A stretch of 5,125 bases of DNA from the NCBI GenBank assembly GCA_021779635.1, contig JAJYAH010000567.1:1-5125 (forward strand), in the 5' to 3' direction. The translations under genes were made by a program, and so were the position numbers. The notes below the pieces were generated by a model. It was given only the letters and a program-made list of their open reading frames with translations, searched no databases and was not told the origin of the DNA. Positions 352 through 5,125 of this stretch are shown here, piece after piece; positions within the stretch are counted from its first letter, which is position 1; each line of letters starts with the position of its first letter. This DNA comes from Pseudomonadota bacterium (GTDB lineage Bacteria; Pseudomonadota; Alphaproteobacteria; Rhizobiales; Xanthobacteraceae).

Positions 352-1401
352 ATGGGCAAATTAGCATTTTTTGGTAGCCCGTTATCTCGCCCAGTTGCCT
401 GCCACGTGGGTTCTGATGAATTCGCAGGATGGGCGTTGTACCTCGCAGGCCTGGTGCTTGGGACGATCTTCGCTCTGATGCTAATTTTCTTCGCTTTGAT
501 GCTATTTTCCGACGCCAGCCGTGCGCAGGAGCAAAAAGCGCTCGCGCCGTTCGCCATCTCCGAGGTCGCGCCCGGCGTCTATGTTCATATCGGTAACATC
601 GAATTGATGACCGAGGCCAATCAGGGTGATGCGGCCAATGTCGGCTTCGTCGTCGGCGACGATGCGGTTGCCGTCATTGATTCCGGTGGCAGCGCCCGCG
701 AGGGAGCGCGCCTGCTGGCCGCGATCCGCGGCGTGACGTCAAAGCCGATTCGCTATGTCATCAATACGCACATGCATCCCGACCACACATTTGGCAATGC
801 GGCGTTCGCGCAGGATGGAACCATTTTTGTCGGACACAGGAATTTGCCCCGCGCGATGACGGCGCGAGGTGATTATTACCTGAAGGCCTTTCGTGCGGTG
901 CTCGGCGATGCGCTGATCGATGAAGTGAAGATTATTCCGCCGACGCTCCTCGTCGACGATGAATTGCAGATCGATCTCGGCCGGCGAATATTGACGTTGA
1001 AGGCCTGGGGGCCCGGGCATACTGACAATGACTTGACGGTGTTCGACAGCACAACTTCAACCCTGTTTGCGGGCGATCTCCTGTTCGTCGGGCATCTGCC
1101 GGTCATTGATGGCAGCATTATCGGCTTTCTCGCTGACCTCGAGGAACTTCAGCGCCTGGCCGCCGAACGCGTTGTGCCCGGGCATGGTCCGGTCCCAACC
1201 GATTGGCGGGGCGCCGTCGACGACGAGCGACACTATCTCGAGAGTCTTGCCGGCGAAGTGCGCAGCCTTATTGCTCAGGGGATACCCCTTACCAAAGCGG
1301 CAAGGGAGGCCGGGCGAAGCGAGCGGTCACGATGGAAATTGTTCGACGAATACAGCTCGCGCAATGTCATCGCGGCGTTCGGCGAGCTTGAGTGGCAGTG
1401 A
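352..1401 (+). CDS. quinoprotein relay system zinc metallohydrolase (SoxH-like MBL fold), probably type 2
   Basis: This 349-residue exported metallo-beta-lactamase-fold hydrolase has a complete metal site: T139-H140-M-H142-P-D144-H145 (HxHxDH), H223 in a GPGHTDND motif, D242 in AGD, and H278 in PGHGP. Residues 27-53 form a long hydrophobic segment followed by S-R-A|Q, a plausible signal peptidase site after A58, so the enzyme should act in the periplasm. The C-terminus (W-x-LFDEY-x-x-RNV...LEW) and the SoxYZ-like gene next to it fit the SoxH-related 'quinoprotein relay' metallohydrolases found with PQQ-dependent dehydrogenases. The substrate is unknown for the family; a thioester- or carrier-bound group on the SoxYZ-like protein is an inference. 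An in-frame stop at 343-345 means ATG 352 is the most upstream ATG available, but its SD is weak and the first 26 residues look unlike family signal peptides, so the true start may be internal (TTG 436, GTG 454 or ATG 478). Confidence 0.88.
469..510 (+). repeat. 21-bp in-frame tandem duplication in the signal segment
   Basis: Positions 469-489 and 490-510 are adjacent direct copies that match at 18 of 21 bases, both starting TTCGCT and containing TGATGCTA. In protein they give F-A-L-M-L-I-F followed by F-A-L-M-L-F-S (residues 40-53). This lengthens the hydrophobic core of the metallohydrolase signal sequence by seven residues without breaking the frame. Confidence 0.75.
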
Positions 1402-1488: not shown

Positions 1489-2325
1489 ATGTCGATTTTC
1501 TCCAGAGTGATCGCCCCTGTCCTGATCGCGACGGTTTGTTTTGCGGGATCGCCGTCGGCGCGCGCCCAGTCGGCCGCTGCCGGATCGGAGCAACCCTCGG
1601 AAGAGACCTGGAACAACATCAAGGGCGATATCTTCAAAGATCATCCGATCCTCGACGGCGCCGGCCTCGTGATCCTTGATGCGCCTCGGCGTGCCGAAGA
1701 CGCCGCCGTCGTTCCGATCGGCATGCGCGTCAACTTCACCGCCGGCGACAAGCGCACGCTTCAATCGCTGACGCTTGTCATCGACGAGAATCCAGCGCCT
1801 GTCGCCGCAACGTTCACGATCGGCCCGCATTCCGGCGTGACATCGATTTCTACACGCGTCCGGGTCGATACCTATTCCTATGTGCGCGTCGTTGCCGAAC
1901 TCAGCGACGGCCAGCTCTATGGCGTCAAGGCTTACGTGAAAGCCTCCGGCGGCTGCTCCGCGCCGGCGGCGGCGAACGCCGACGCCACCAAGTCGATGCT
2001 CGGTCAAATGAAATTCCGCACCTTCCATTCGGAGGCCGACGCGCTGCCCGAGGCCCAGATCATGCTGCGCCACCCCCAGAATTCCGGCCTGCAGATGGAC
2101 CAGTTGACGCGGCTTTACGTGCCGCCGTTTTTTATCGAGAACCTGAAGATCTGGCAGGGCGACGATCTTGTGGTAGCGATGGATGGCGGGATTGCAATAT
2201 CCGAAGATCCGAATATCCGCTTTAACTATAAGCCCAACGGCGCCGCTAACTTTCGCGCCGAAGCAACCGACACCAGCAAAGACCGGTTCAGGGACGAGTG
2301 GTTGATCGAGAAATCGATGCTATAG
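1489..2325 (+). CDS. quinoprotein dehydrogenase-associated SoxYZ-like carrier protein
   Basis: This 278-residue exported protein joins a SoxY-like and a SoxZ-like domain in one chain. Residues 1-26 are a signal peptide ending A-R-A|Q. The SoxY-like part (about 40-155) ends in V-K-A-S-G-G-C156, which corresponds to the swinging C-terminal GGC arm of SoxY. Here the cysteine is internal and followed by an Ala-rich linker (157-167). The SoxZ-like part (about 185-275) has the characteristic I-M-L-R-H-P...G-L...V-P-P-F-F-I pattern. In sulfur oxidation SoxYZ carries sulfur intermediates on this cysteine. Fused versions occur beside PQQ-dependent dehydrogenases, where the cargo is unknown. It lies 87 bp after the metallohydrolase stop on the same strand, so the two are probably co-expressed, and the hydrolase may act on whatever C156 carries (inference). 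No other sox genes are visible. The 3' end lies 24 bp from a convergent gene. Confidence 0.9.
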   Translation: MSIFSRVIAPVLIATVCFAGSPSARAQSAAAGSEQPSEETWNNIKGDIFKDHPILDGAGLVILDAPRRAEDAAVVPIGMRVNFTAGDKRTLQSLTLVIDENPAPVAATFTIGPHSGVTSISTRVRVDTYSYVRVVAELSDGQLYGVKAYVKASGGCSAPAAANADATKSMLGQMKFRTFHSEADALPEAQIMLRHPQNSGLQMDQLTRLYVPPFFIENLKIWQGDDLVVAMDGGIAISEDPNIRFNYKPNGAANFRAEATDTSKDRFRDEWLIEKSML

Positions 2326-2349: not shown

Positions 2350-2733
2350 TCAAAAGCAGCGAATTTCTGCTTCCGCTTGTGCCCGGCGGAATTCCTGCAA
2401 TGCAAGCTTGGCCGGCTCGGTCGAACGAAATTCAGAACCGACCGGCCCTGTAACCTGGGACATCGAGATAATTGTCTCGGCGGCCACGTAGTGGTCGTAA
2501 GGAATAATCGACGCAATCACGTCGATCGAGCACGAGCATTTTTGCAGAAGCTCCTGTGTTTCGCCGTTGGCCTTCATGCACCCGAAGACATAGTCAGCGC
2601 GCGCCGAGGTCGGATAATCATTGAGGTCGTCAGCCTTCGCATGCGACGTCGCAGCGACGATCAAAGCCGCCAGCAGCGCGCTCGATCGGAGCAGGGTACG
2701 CAACGGAGCCGTCGTTAACGGCTCTCGTCGCAA
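2350..2733 (-). CDS. small exported four-cysteine protein, function unknown
   Basis: With a TTG start at 2733 (4 nt after the cytochrome c stop) the product is 127 residues. A basic n-region (R2, R3, R12, R16), a hydrophobic core (LLAALIVAATS) and A-K-A|D after residue 34 form a clear signal peptide. The mature part contains four cysteines: C52 in D-Y-V-F-G-C, C66-S-C68-S-I-D-V-I, and C126 as the next-to-last residue. There is no CxxCH, so it is not a c-type haem protein; two disulfides or a metal/redox role are possible. I do not recognise a named family, but its place directly behind cytochrome c suggests a role in cytochrome function or maturation in the periplasm. The start is uncertain. 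TTG 2703 (117 aa) is possible, as are ATG 2787 (with GAGGA 9 nt upstream) and ATG 2802. The last two would overlap the cytochrome gene and give an oddly long n-region. Confidence 0.75.
   Translation of the reverse strand: MRREPLTTAPLRTLLRSSALLAALIVAATSHAKADDLNDYPTSARADYVFGCMKANGETQELLQKCSCSIDVIASIIPYDHYVAAETIISMSQVTGPVGSEFRSTEPAKLALQEFRRAQAEAEIRCF
2351..2373 (-). terminator. weak hairpin at the end of the cytochrome c / four-Cys operon
   Basis: Read on the minus strand, AAGCAG-AAATTCG-CTGCTT (2372 to 2354) forms a 6-bp stem and continues into TTTTGA, which contains the stop codon. The T run is short and the stem is half A/T, so this is at best a weak intrinsic terminator. It overlaps the last codons of the gene rather than following them. 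Confidence 0.22.
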
Positions 2734-2737
2734 TTGC

Positions 2738-3130
2738 TCAGGATTTTTTGCCGTCGGCCCCAAACTGTTTGAGATAGGCGATGACATTGTCGATGTCCTC
2801 ATCCTTTGGCAAACCGGGGAAAATCATCTTGGTGCCGGGAACCTTGGCGCGGGGATTTTTCAGATATTCCTTCAAGGTCGCCTCGTCCCAGGTGATGCCG
2901 GAATTCTTGTTGGCTTCGCTGTAGGAGTAGTCAGAATACGTGCCGGCCTTGCGGCCGACGATGCCGTTGAGCACCGGCCCGACGGCGTTCTTGGCTCCCT
3001 CGCCGATTTGGTGGCAAGCCCTGCATTTGAGAAATACCTTCTCGCCAAGGGCAGCATCCTGAGCGCCCGCGGCGCCCGCCATGCCGGCAAGCGCGAAGGC
3101 AGCGAAAATGTAAACCTTAAGATTTGTCAC
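2738..3130 (-). CDS. class I cytochrome c (mitochondrial / cytochrome c2-like), periplasmic
   Basis: From GTG 3130 the product has 130 residues. Residues 1-23 are a signal peptide with K5, a hydrophobic core and A-G-A|Q. The haem-binding motif is C36-R-A-C39-H40, preceded by G-E-K-V-F-L-K as in cytochromes c2. M92 in G-T-K-M-I-F-P-G-L is the sixth haem ligand, and the C-terminal helix D-x-D-N-V-I-A-Y-L-K is typical of the family. It is a soluble one-electron carrier, probably between a periplasmic dehydrogenase (or its cytochrome cL/XoxG-type partner) and a terminal oxidase; the specific partner is inferred from context. It is the first gene of a leftward operon with the four-Cys protein. A TTG at 3157 in the same frame would add nine residues (MDAQITDRP) before the signal peptide. 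GTG 3130 has the better SD and gives a normal signal peptide. Confidence 0.93.
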   Translation of the reverse strand: MTNLKVYIFAAFALAGMAGAAGAQDAALGEKVFLKCRACHQIGEGAKNAVGPVLNGIVGRKAGTYSDYSYSEANKNSGITWDEATLKEYLKNPRAKVPGTKMIFPGLPKDEDIDNVIAYLKQFGADGKKS

Positions 3131-3456
3131 TGGCCTATCCGTGATTTGAGCGTCCAATGAATCACAGCAGCCAATTCGCGCCGCTCCGATCGCGAACCAA
3201 CGTTTGCAAAATCAGCAGCCTTGGTCAAGCTAGGGCTTGGTATGATGTCGATGATCAAGCACCGACCCGTGAAGGGCCACCGTCATTCGCAGCTTTCGAT
3301 GATGGCAATGTTAGCGGAGGCCCGTAATATCAACTACCGTGGGGAGGACCAGTTTCGGGCCTTTATGGCATGGAGCTCATGCCTGCGCGCGAATTTCCAG
3401 ATACAGTGCCGAAGGATGCTCACGACGGGTTGGCACCTATATTGCGCTGCGAAAAC
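3131..3456. promoter_or_regulatory. non-coding divergent control region between cytochrome c and the barrel-like gene
   Basis: This 326-bp stretch separates two divergently read genes and must hold their promoters if both are transcribed from nearby. On the minus strand TTGACC (3228-3223) is a good -35-like hexamer for the cytochrome operon, but the spot 17 nt downstream (AAACGT) is a poor -10. Overlapping it is an inverted repeat CAAGC-TAGG-GCTTG (3226-3239), a possible regulator site. A GGGGAGGA at 3341-3348 looks like a strong SD but no start codon follows at a usable distance. The small plus-strand reading frame across 3221-3460 shows no protein-like features. Confidence 0.4.
3134..3140 (-). 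promoter_or_regulatory. ribosome binding site deciding the cytochrome c start
   Basis: On the minus strand GGATAGG lies just before GTG 3130, with the GGA core 7 nt upstream. The alternative TTG 3157 has no purine-rich SD (TGTGATTCA precedes it), which favours the GTG start. Confidence 0.5.
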
Positions 3457-4383
3457 ATGATTCGGATTAACGGAATTGCCAGATTGAACGAGCGCCTCAT
3501 ATTTCCCGTTCGTTTGTCGTCATGGCGGAGCTGCACGGTTAAATCATGTCTGTTGTTCGTACTTGCGCTCATTCCGACCGATGGCCACACCGAACCAATC
3601 GAGACTGAACATCTGTTCGGTTTCACCATAGGAAGCGATACCGGCGACGTCGGAGAAAGAGAGATAGAGGGGTCCGTAACTGGCCGATTTGCGAAGCAAG
3701 CCGGAACATTCGACGCGGCTTCCAGCACGATGTCTGCGGAATTCGTTCCGATGCCAAATCTCCGGACCGAACTTACCGCAGCGGTCGTTTCCTATGACGT
3801 TGCCGGCGTCAGCGGGTTCGCCGATCAGCGCTATACCGCATTTGGAGGCCTGTCTGCCGACATCCGCTACAGGATACTCGATCGTGCGACGGCGCCGTTC
3901 GGCTTTGCGATCGGCGCCGAACCCCATTGGGGGCGGGCCGATGACATCACCGGTGAACCCGTCAGCCAATACGGCAGCGACTTCGTCGCCGCCGCCGACT
4001 GGGAGATCATCCCCGAGCGTGTCGTTGCGGCCTTCAACCTGCTCTATCAGCCCGAAACCGAGCGTTCGAAGCTGACCGGCACCTGGTCGCAGCAATCCAT
4101 GGCCGGCGTCGCATTTGGCGTGATGGCGCAGGTTAAATCGGGGATTTTTGTCGGCGGCGAAGCGCGCTATCTGCGCCAGTACGATGGATTTGGGCTGGAC
4201 GTGCTCGCCGGACAAGGCTTTTTCATTGGGCCGACGATCTATTTCAAGCTTTCCGAACGAGCGTGGATCGCAGCCGCGTGGAGCGCCCAGGTTGCGGGCC
4301 AGGCAGCGACCGTCGCCGGTTCGCTCGATCTGGTAAATTTCGAACGCCGACAGGCTCGCCTCCAGTTCGGGGTAAATTTTTGA
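3457..4383 (+). CDS. exported outer-membrane beta-barrel-like protein, function unknown
   Basis: From ATG 3457 the product has 308 residues. A basic stretch (R and K up to residue 29) and a hydrophobic core C-L-L-F-V-L-A-L-I-P (31-40) form a signal peptide, with the mature part starting near the E-P-I-E-T-E sequence at about 46. The rest is rich in Gly, aromatic residues and alternating polar/non-polar segments, and the chain ends L-Q-F-G-V-N-F, with hydrophobic residues at every second position and a C-terminal Phe. This matches the signal recognised by the BAM complex on outer-membrane barrels. I do not recognise a named family. Placed in a C1-oxidation neighbourhood it could be a porin-like channel or an envelope structural protein, but that is inference. 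The start is uncertain: the frame is open from ATG 3370 (337 aa), and TTG 3514 would give the tidiest signal peptide (289 aa); none has a convincing SD. Confidence 0.72.
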   Translation: MIRINGIARLNERLIFPVRLSSWRSCTVKSCLLFVLALIPTDGHTEPIETEHLFGFTIGSDTGDVGEREIEGSVTGRFAKQAGTFDAASSTMSAEFVPMPNLRTELTAAVVSYDVAGVSGFADQRYTAFGGLSADIRYRILDRATAPFGFAIGAEPHWGRADDITGEPVSQYGSDFVAAADWEIIPERVVAAFNLLYQPETERSKLTGTWSQQSMAGVAFGVMAQVKSGIFVGGEARYLRQYDGFGLDVLAGQGFFIGPTIYFKLSERAWIAAAWSAQVAGQAATVAGSLDLVNFERRQARLQFGVNF

Positions 4384-4434: not shown

Positions 4435-4776
4435 CTATTTGGTGCAGTCCTTCAGACTTTTCTCCTCGATCGAAAAGATCGATCCTGCCTTGACCTGAAT
4501 GTTCGGGACAACGCAGGTCCGTCCGCTCTTGTCGACAATCTTCACATCGTAAGTGCCAGAAGCCGTATCGGTGATCTTCAGGCGTTCGTCATGATCGACC
4601 GTATGGTCCTTGTCGTTGTCGGCCTGGTTCCGGCCCCACTCGTTCTTGCCGGTCGGTGAAAATTGCAACGACGTGATCGTATTGGCCGTCAGGTTCCAGA
4701 ACTGGGTATCTTTTGCCGACGCGCTTATCGGAATGAATACCAGAATAAAAGCTATCAGAGTCGCCGCCTTGGCCAT
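4435..4776 (-). CDS. small exported protein with an EF-hand-like (lanmodulin-like) metal loop
   Basis: This 113-residue protein has a clear signal peptide (K3, hydrophobic 5-17, A-S-A|K after residue 21), so the mature form is about 92 residues and periplasmic. Residues 53-64 read D-N-D-K-D-H-T-V-D-H-D-E, with acidic or oxygen ligands at EF-hand positions 1, 3, 5, 7, 9 and 12 and the usual hydrophobic residue at 8. Position 6, normally Gly, is His. The flanking segments look more like beta strands (T-I-T-S-L-Q-F; T-Y-D-V-K-I-V) than the two helices of a classic EF-hand. C88 and C111 could form a disulfide. ATG 4776 is chosen because GGGGAG lies 9 nt upstream and the signal peptide starts there; an in-frame ATG at 4887 would add 37 residues before the signal peptide. 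It lies downstream of fghA on the same strand after 237 bp, and converges on the barrel-like gene. Function is unknown; Ca or lanthanide binding is an inference. Confidence 0.82.
   Translation of the reverse strand: MAKAATLIAFILVFIPISASAKDTQFWNLTANTITSLQFSPTGKNEWGRNQADNDKDHTVDHDERLKITDTASGTYDVKIVDKSGRTCVVPNIQVKAGSIFSIEEKSLKDCTK
4585..4620 (-). other. EF-hand-like 12-residue metal-binding loop
   Basis: This codes for D53 to E64 of the small exported protein. The pattern D-x-D-x-D-x-T-V-D-x-x-E fits the EF-hand loop consensus at every ligand position. It also matches the lanmodulin-type loop D-P-D-K-D-G-T-I-D-L-K-E at D1, D3, K4, D5, T7, D9 and E12, but lacks the Pro at position 2 and the Gly at position 6. 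Confidence 0.6.
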
Positions 4777-5013: not shown

Positions 5014-5125
5014 TCAGGATCTCAATCGCGCGGCGTGCCAGCGCATGTGATCTTCCATGAAGGTCGATACGAAGTAATAGCTATGGTCATAGCCGGCCTG
5101 GCGGCGAAGGGTAAGCGGGATTGCC
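5014..5125 (-). CDS. fghA: S-formylglutathione hydrolase, C-terminal end (partial)
   Basis: The last 36 residues of a minus-strand gene enter from the right edge and stop at TGA (5016-5014). They contain G-Y-D-H-S-Y-Y-F followed by [11 protein letters not shown], which is the strongly conserved C-terminus of the S-formylglutathione hydrolase / esterase D family. The His in G-Y-D-H is the catalytic His of the Ser-Asp-His triad. The enzyme hydrolyses S-formylglutathione to formate and glutathione in the cytoplasm, the last step of glutathione-dependent formaldehyde oxidation. The family is about 280 residues long, so roughly seven eighths of the gene lie outside the window. This is the clearest evidence that the locus belongs to C1 metabolism. 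Confidence 0.9.

Follow-up and report, generated by a model that had tools for sequence, protein, structure and literature searches.

We propose that a 113-aa protein encoded in the window (the whole stretch of 5,125 nucleotides analyzed here) is a small periplasmic beta-fold member of a lanthanide-handling set of proteins, which would hold one metal ion, lanthanide(III) or calcium, at an acidic loop. The protein and its family are labeled US. Judged from sequence and structural models, this combined statement has an even chance of being right, a rating given because the metal is left open. Taken separately, the link of US to lanthanide/PQQ methanol metabolism is very likely, the function of the loop as a metal site is slightly favored by sequence and models, and a lanthanide rather than calcium as its metal is somewhat less likely than not. 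Few periplasmic lanthanide carriers are known (LanM, LanD, and LanP), and the route that the metals take to XoxF from the outer membrane is at issue; US is a promising candidate for a further component of the rare-earth-handling machinery. Being conserved, linked to lanM, and built on another scaffold, it would allow direct tests by genetics and binding assays in nitrogen-fixing symbionts, and it might provide a new protein for rare-earth separation.

An acidic EF-like loop in a small, probably exported protein

The US gene and its features are located as follows.

4435..4776, minus strand: US gene, from the open reading frame and its translation (113 aa, stop codon included)
4714..4776, minus strand: putative signal peptide, residues 1-21, a hydrophobic N terminus ending in SASA, assigned by eye
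4585..4620, minus strand: acidic EF-like loop DNDKDHTVDHDE, residues 53-64, read from genomic position 4620 down to 4585

A preliminary description of this DNA had pointed out a 12-residue loop in an exported protein of 113 aa. The position and residues of the loop were confirmed, and export is probable, as indicated by the hydrophobic N terminus ending in SASA. Cleavage is guessed to occur between A21 and K22; AlphaFold confidence was low across the putative signal peptide. Within DNDKDHTVDHDE, Asp occupies EF positions 1, 3, 5, and 9, Val position 8, and Glu position 12. Position 1 provides the chief ligand of EF-hands, and position 13 is usually a hydrophobic residue. Caution is called for by the His at position 6 and by the Arg at position 13 (Arg65).

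When the mature 92 residues of US were shuffled 200,000 times, the strict pattern D.D.D..[ILV]D..E arose in 11 shuffles and a looser EF pattern in 2,647; the loop is not a chance match. Of the 1,558 genes that were called across the window and loci L051-L128, 21 had the strict pattern, which is not a genome-wide rate because these loci were picked around the US family. Fifteen of the 21 are lanmodulins (55-68% identity), and the other six are US or members of its close clade. Gene calls for this set and for the fetched regions, including L171, were made with a home-made script.

Conservation of the loop across the family

Searches with US returned 1,978 homologues at E ≤ 1e-3. In a close set composed of the query and the best 120 of these 1,978 homologues (121 sequences), D55, D57, D61, D63, E64, and R65 were each present in 121/121, and D53 in 119/121, with one Glu and one Asn, so that position 1 was acidic in 120/121. 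Most of the more distant members were drawn from a panel of 296 genomes of the family of Bradyrhizobium locus L003, in which US was found in 67 genomes. The resulting 79 non-identical rows, minus the outgroup L043, L089, and L090 and the cut fragment L112, left 75 family rows, two of which, L005 and L116, represent one gene, L116 being a fragment of it.

EF positions 3 (Asp), 9 (Asp), and 12 (Glu) showed no variation in the 75 family rows, and position 5 was Asp in 74 and Glu in one. The acids at positions 3, 5, 9, and 12 sought in a metal loop of the Dx[DN]xDG type were thus conserved in 75/75 rows, counting the one Glu at position 5. Arg65, at position 13 and adjoining the conserved acids, was invariant. 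The Asp at position 1 is not conserved across the family: this position was acidic in 8/75 rows (Asp in five, Glu in three), six of which form part of the window's clade, a seven-row group that includes the window, the others being L022 and L042. Over all 79 rows, position 1 was Leu in 49 and Lys in 15, and Gly was found at position 6 in 19. The earlier claim that all EF ligand positions are filled therefore applies mainly to the window's own clade; as a general rule for the family it is ruled out by position 1. The alignment of homologues suggested in the same description gave the expected acids at positions 3, 5, 9, and 12 and failed to do so at position 1.

A class-wide search produced matches in 11/385 genomes, three of them full members and eight very distant (E 6e-8 to 9e-4). 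Among distant proteins alignable through the loop, the acidic run was shortened in L043 and in L089 (a family-panel protein), and in L044 and L046 other residues took its place. From these alignments we read the acidic loop as specific to the US family.

Predicted fold of US

The AlphaFold model of US is a confident small all-beta domain. The loop, modeled without metal, was ordered, with ten-residue pLDDT means of 97-98, in two models, of proteins with Asp or Leu at position 1. In both, it was preceded by a 4-residue helix and followed by a strand, EF position 8 was a lone bridge residue, and a helix-loop-helix was absent. No Pfam EF-hand match was obtained among 46 US members (E ≤ 10), whereas two LanM genes matched EF-hand profiles of the same library. 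Profile searches with the window protein and the 46 members yielded no PepSY match either. Sequence kinship between US and LanM was not detected, as LanM searches matched other genes and LanM reading frames appeared only at E > 1 with the US profile. Moreover, four EF-hand loops are expected of lanmodulin, and US has one in 113 aa. The possibility that US is a lanmodulin or an EF-hand protein was rejected on the basis of the all-beta model, the lack of EF-hand profile matches, and the helix-loop-strand setting. The model and the profile searches agree with the initial proposal of a beta-rich scaffold with one loop, unlike lanmodulin. The Asp at position 9, put forward at the same time as a lanmodulin feature, is a weak argument alone, because Asp is a usual residue at EF position 9 according to the accessible part of PMC3123361.

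Calcium loops of the Dx[DN]xDG type (Rigden et al. 2011, PMC3123361) offer a parallel, as EF-like loops found in other folds, including helix-loop-strand settings like that of US. The available text of that article describes such loops as functional in helix-loop-strand settings, reports that one inserted between two strands of CD2 sufficed for a Ca site, and places those other than EF-hands and calcium blades mostly outside the cytoplasm. US differs from them in that most members lack the first Asp and that Gly at position 6 is limited to the 19/79 rows mentioned above.

The prevalence of Leu and Lys at position 1 and the invariant Arg at position 13 both argue against a metal site. They would suit a docking patch instead, a fixed surface made up of the loop acids and Arg65 to which LanM, XoxF, or a cytochrome would attach: Arg65 varies no more than the acids do, hydrophobic and basic residues are freely accepted at position 1, and the loop is predicted to be ordered without metal. 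However, the D-x-D-x-x-x-V-D-x-x-E spacing is that of an EF loop, down to a hydrophobic bridge residue at position 8, and a patch needs no spacing of this kind. We regard a docking patch as unlikely and a metal site as the preferred reading of the loop.

US genes lie among quinoprotein and XoxF genes

Neighbors of US were tallied in 57 regions, most of which extend about 9 kb on each side of US; these are the 60 fetched regions minus L078 (<10 kb) and minus L089 and L090, which hold very distant relatives only and no marker gene. The LanM blast behind this tally left out the window, and the tally was not used for the window. The window itself contains the following other features.

352..1401, plus strand: quinoprotein relay system zinc metallohydrolase 2 (TIGR04559, 396.7 bits, cut-off 280)
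1489..2325, plus strand: quinoprotein dehydrogenase-associated SoxYZ-like carrier (TIGR04557, 262.4 bits, cut-off 140)
2350..2802, minus strand: 150-aa protein without a family, with a homologue in 48/57 US regions
2738..3157, minus strand: c-type cytochrome, c-550 CycA-like (PF00034, E 4e-11)
3370..4383, plus strand: uncharacterized protein, tentatively labeled "porin-like", with a homologue in 33/57 US regions
5014..5124, minus strand: C-terminal end of fghA (S-formylglutathione hydrolase; tblastn 87.9% identity, E 9e-20)

The cytochrome scored 168.7 bits against NF043008, under the cut-off of 240, and the protein at 3370..4383 gave a sub-threshold match to DUF6662 (18.7 bits versus 27). The cytochrome and 150-aa genes overlap by about 65 bases (2738-2802, minus strand) if the latter uses its first start codon; its true start may be further in. 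No lanM or xoxF gene was seen in the window, where US is the sole called gene with the strict loop pattern and the six longer open reading frames gave no match to EF-hand or PQQ dehydrogenase families.

The fghA end lies 237 bp upstream of the US start, on the strand that also carries US, and the reference FghA passes TIGR02821; the adjacency to a formaldehyde-oxidation gene noted at the outset is thus confirmed. The link to methylotrophy that had been drawn from it holds across genomes, but fghA turned out to be the weakest neighbor (3/57 regions), so that the argument is carried by lanM, xoxF, LutA/LutB-type, and quinoprotein accessory genes.

XoxF was called at E ≤ 1e-200 in 104/296 panel genomes. 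It was present in 58/67 genomes with US as opposed to 46/229 without (Fisher p 2e-23, a value that ignores shared ancestry), leaving nine US genomes negative at this threshold; absences are soft in the family panel, which is a sample of genomes of unstated completeness. Of 68 places where US occurs, xoxF is on the same contig in 52 and no more than 20 kb away in 49; by simple arithmetic, a random gene in a 7-Mb genome with one xoxF would be that close in about 0.6% of cases. The XoxF used as query is accepted by TIGR03075 (methanol/ethanol PQQ dehydrogenases), and we use the name XoxF because of the Asp-x-Asp signature and the cluster. This lanthanide signature was found in 59/59 PQQ dehydrogenases aligned from the fetched regions, namely, 31 close homologues (at least 73% identity) and 28 more distant ones. 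The accessible part of PMC11845868 gives the signature pair as Asp299/Asp301 of XoxF2.

A gene for a PQQ dehydrogenase, SoxYZ-like carrier, zinc hydrolase, or LanM was present in 53 of the 57 regions, the exceptions being L091, L092, L097, and L110, in which all five marker classes scored were missing. By marker, SoxYZ-like genes were counted in 44 regions, zinc hydrolase genes in 42, xoxF in 27, and lanM in 21. The association counts are uncorrected for ancestry, and US, LanM (at least 50% identity), and XoxF may all track one clade. US could accordingly be hitch-hiking in a clade-specific neighborhood with no functional link to lanthanides. We consider this very improbable: neighbor order and strand vary, yet the lanthanide/PQQ genes stay in 53/57 regions, and one genome outside the family panel (G848) has US, LanM, and XoxF without their being adjacent.

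A further recurrent pair, seen for instance at L116:484-2220 (plus strand), encodes an NMT1-like substrate-binding protein and an ABC permease, each found beside US in 33/57 regions; their substrate is perhaps a lanthanide chelator.

Association of US with lanmodulin

The same 296 genomes were searched with lanmodulin of M. extorquens (checked against PDB 6mi5) at E ≤ 1e-6. A LanM-like match was obtained in 64 genomes, 52 of them with at least 50% identity, a cut chosen after seeing the match list. US was present in 49 of these 52; over all 64, 49 had US and 15 did not. Conversely, 18/67 US genomes had no LanM at that identity. Among XoxF genomes, LanM (at least 50% identity) was found in 43/58 with US versus 1/46 without, counts that were derived by hand.

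The association extends to gene order, with lanM lying within 6 kb of 24/68 US places. In five genomes (G256, G244, G237, G197, and G136), US is located directly upstream of lanM on the same strand, at 174-205 bp. In G293, a diverged US paralogue is 1.9 kb from lanM. Within the window's clade, lanM is on another contig than US in G001 and G003, and G002 carries a lanmodulin gene (62% identity) about 6 kb from US. The gene before US in G244 (locus L128) codes for a 1071-aa TonB-dependent receptor and itself follows a gene for a small outer-membrane barrel protein; the receptor (L128:1252-4464, plus strand) has an extra C-terminal outer-membrane barrel domain and is a candidate for the receptor of lanthanide complexes at the outer membrane. 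In L092 and L096, US likewise follows genes of comparable length, a comparison of length only. In G136 (locus L060, 3023-5201, minus strand), US is preceded by genes for a histidine kinase, whose periplasmic domain is of the LapD/MoxY type, and for a LuxR-type regulator; both are possible lanthanide-switch regulators.

These arrangements bear on the reading in which US is a quinoprotein relay accessory that binds no lanthanide and serves the electron or assembly pathway of a PQQ dehydrogenase with the SoxYZ-like carrier and the zinc hydrolase, its loop being structural or holding ordinary calcium for stability. Such a role would be in keeping with the marker counts, in which both accessory genes exceed xoxF and lanM, and with the mostly extracytoplasmic location of non-EF DxDxDG calcium loops in the available text of PMC3123361. 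Yet the partner in the five tandem genomes is lanM, three tandem loci with regions of at least 10 kb (L060, L096, and L101) are devoid of SoxYZ-like and zinc hydrolase genes, and the diverged paralogue of G293 is again close to lanM. We view the accessory role as rather unlikely, while according it somewhat more weight than the docking patch, and retain the lanthanide-handling set as the better account.

Eighteen further genomes picked for LanM-like matches were probed for US. Sixteen gave no match at E ≤ 1, one (G888) gave a weak match (E 0.165), and G848 had a true member (L176:9693-10058, plus strand) whose position 1 is Ala; in G848, other contigs than that of US carry the lanM and PQQ dehydrogenase matches. 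US thus appears to be largely part of one bacterial group and not a universal lanthanide gene.

Lut-type clusters

The window's clade sits among LutA/LutB-type genes, which are found near US in L115. In G003, US is close to genes for TIGR03863 and TIGR03866 proteins, XoxF, a methanol-metabolism-related cytochrome, S-(hydroxymethyl)glutathione dehydrogenase, and FghA. In a LanM-bearing genome outside the family panel (locus L171), TIGR03863 and TIGR03866 genes head a row that reaches lanM, with an ABC ATPase (TIGR03864), further genes, and a large protein with a TonB-receptor-like start (recognized by eye) in between. The accessible text of PMC7391723 describes, for the lut genes of M. extorquens, lutA as a periplasmic binding component, lutB and lutG as coding for exported proteins, lutE/F as ABC parts, and lutH as a TonB receptor. 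Because the L171 row fits these published genes, we infer that the TIGR03863 and TIGR03866 proteins are LutA and LutB. The protein encoded beside US on the opposite strand in G003 is akin to the first protein of the L171 row (27% identity, E 9e-12, in a single comparison). The row also includes, between the LutB-type and ABC ATPase genes, a gene for a 162-aa protein (L171:3191-3676, plus strand) with no NCBIfam or PDB match.

Comparison with known systems and possible mode of action

Lanmodulin has a helical fold and binds lanthanides very tightly and selectively, and LanD has a four-ligand site. LanM (PDB 6mi5) resembles US in being a small exported protein with loops of the type D-x-D-x-D-x-T-[ILV]-D-x-x-E, and its gene often adjoins US in the same kind of cluster; it differs by its four loops and EF-hand profile matches, whereas in US a single loop, mostly non-acidic at position 1, sits in an all-beta model. 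Landiscernin (LanD), the lanthanide chaperone of M. extorquens, is presented in the accessible part of PMC11996626 as a second small periplasmic lanthanide protein functionally tied to LanM. By this description it is like US, which is small and probably periplasmic; the US profile matched no LanD entry in the PDB at E ≤ 10, in a copy whose coverage of LanD is uncertain. LanPepSY (LanP) is, in the available text of PMC12482762, a small periplasmic lanthanide-binding protein of 19 kDa on a non-EF scaffold with two PepSY domains, which US lacks by profile search.

The accessible parts of articles on Bradyrhizobium methanol growth and the lanthanome (PMC12628762, PMC12482762, PMC11845868, and PMC11996626), and likewise those of PMC12723673, PMC7391723, and PMC9260416, contain no description of the US family; most subscription papers fall outside this coverage, and we make no claim that the family is unpublished. 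The word "lanmodulin" is absent from the available main text of PMC12628762, though lanM is common in the genomes analyzed here.

In the mechanism that we propose, US would be exported to the periplasm and would belong to the lut/lanM/xoxF lanthanide-handling set of Bradyrhizobium-type bacteria. The four nearly invariant acids of its acidic helix-loop-strand loop (EF positions 3, 5, 9, and 12) would hold one hard metal ion, at a site perhaps completed by a partner, and US, acting together with lanmodulin and XoxF, would bind the metal or hand it on in the periplasm. A more specific version, which we deem improbable to a degree between the accessory role and the docking patch, casts US as a lanthanide chaperone on a beta scaffold, in which the four acids, mostly without the first EF ligand, form an open half-site. 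LanM, XoxF, or a second copy of US would complete the half-site, and the metal would be passed on, not trapped. In the window's clade, the site would be closed by the gain of an acid at position 1.
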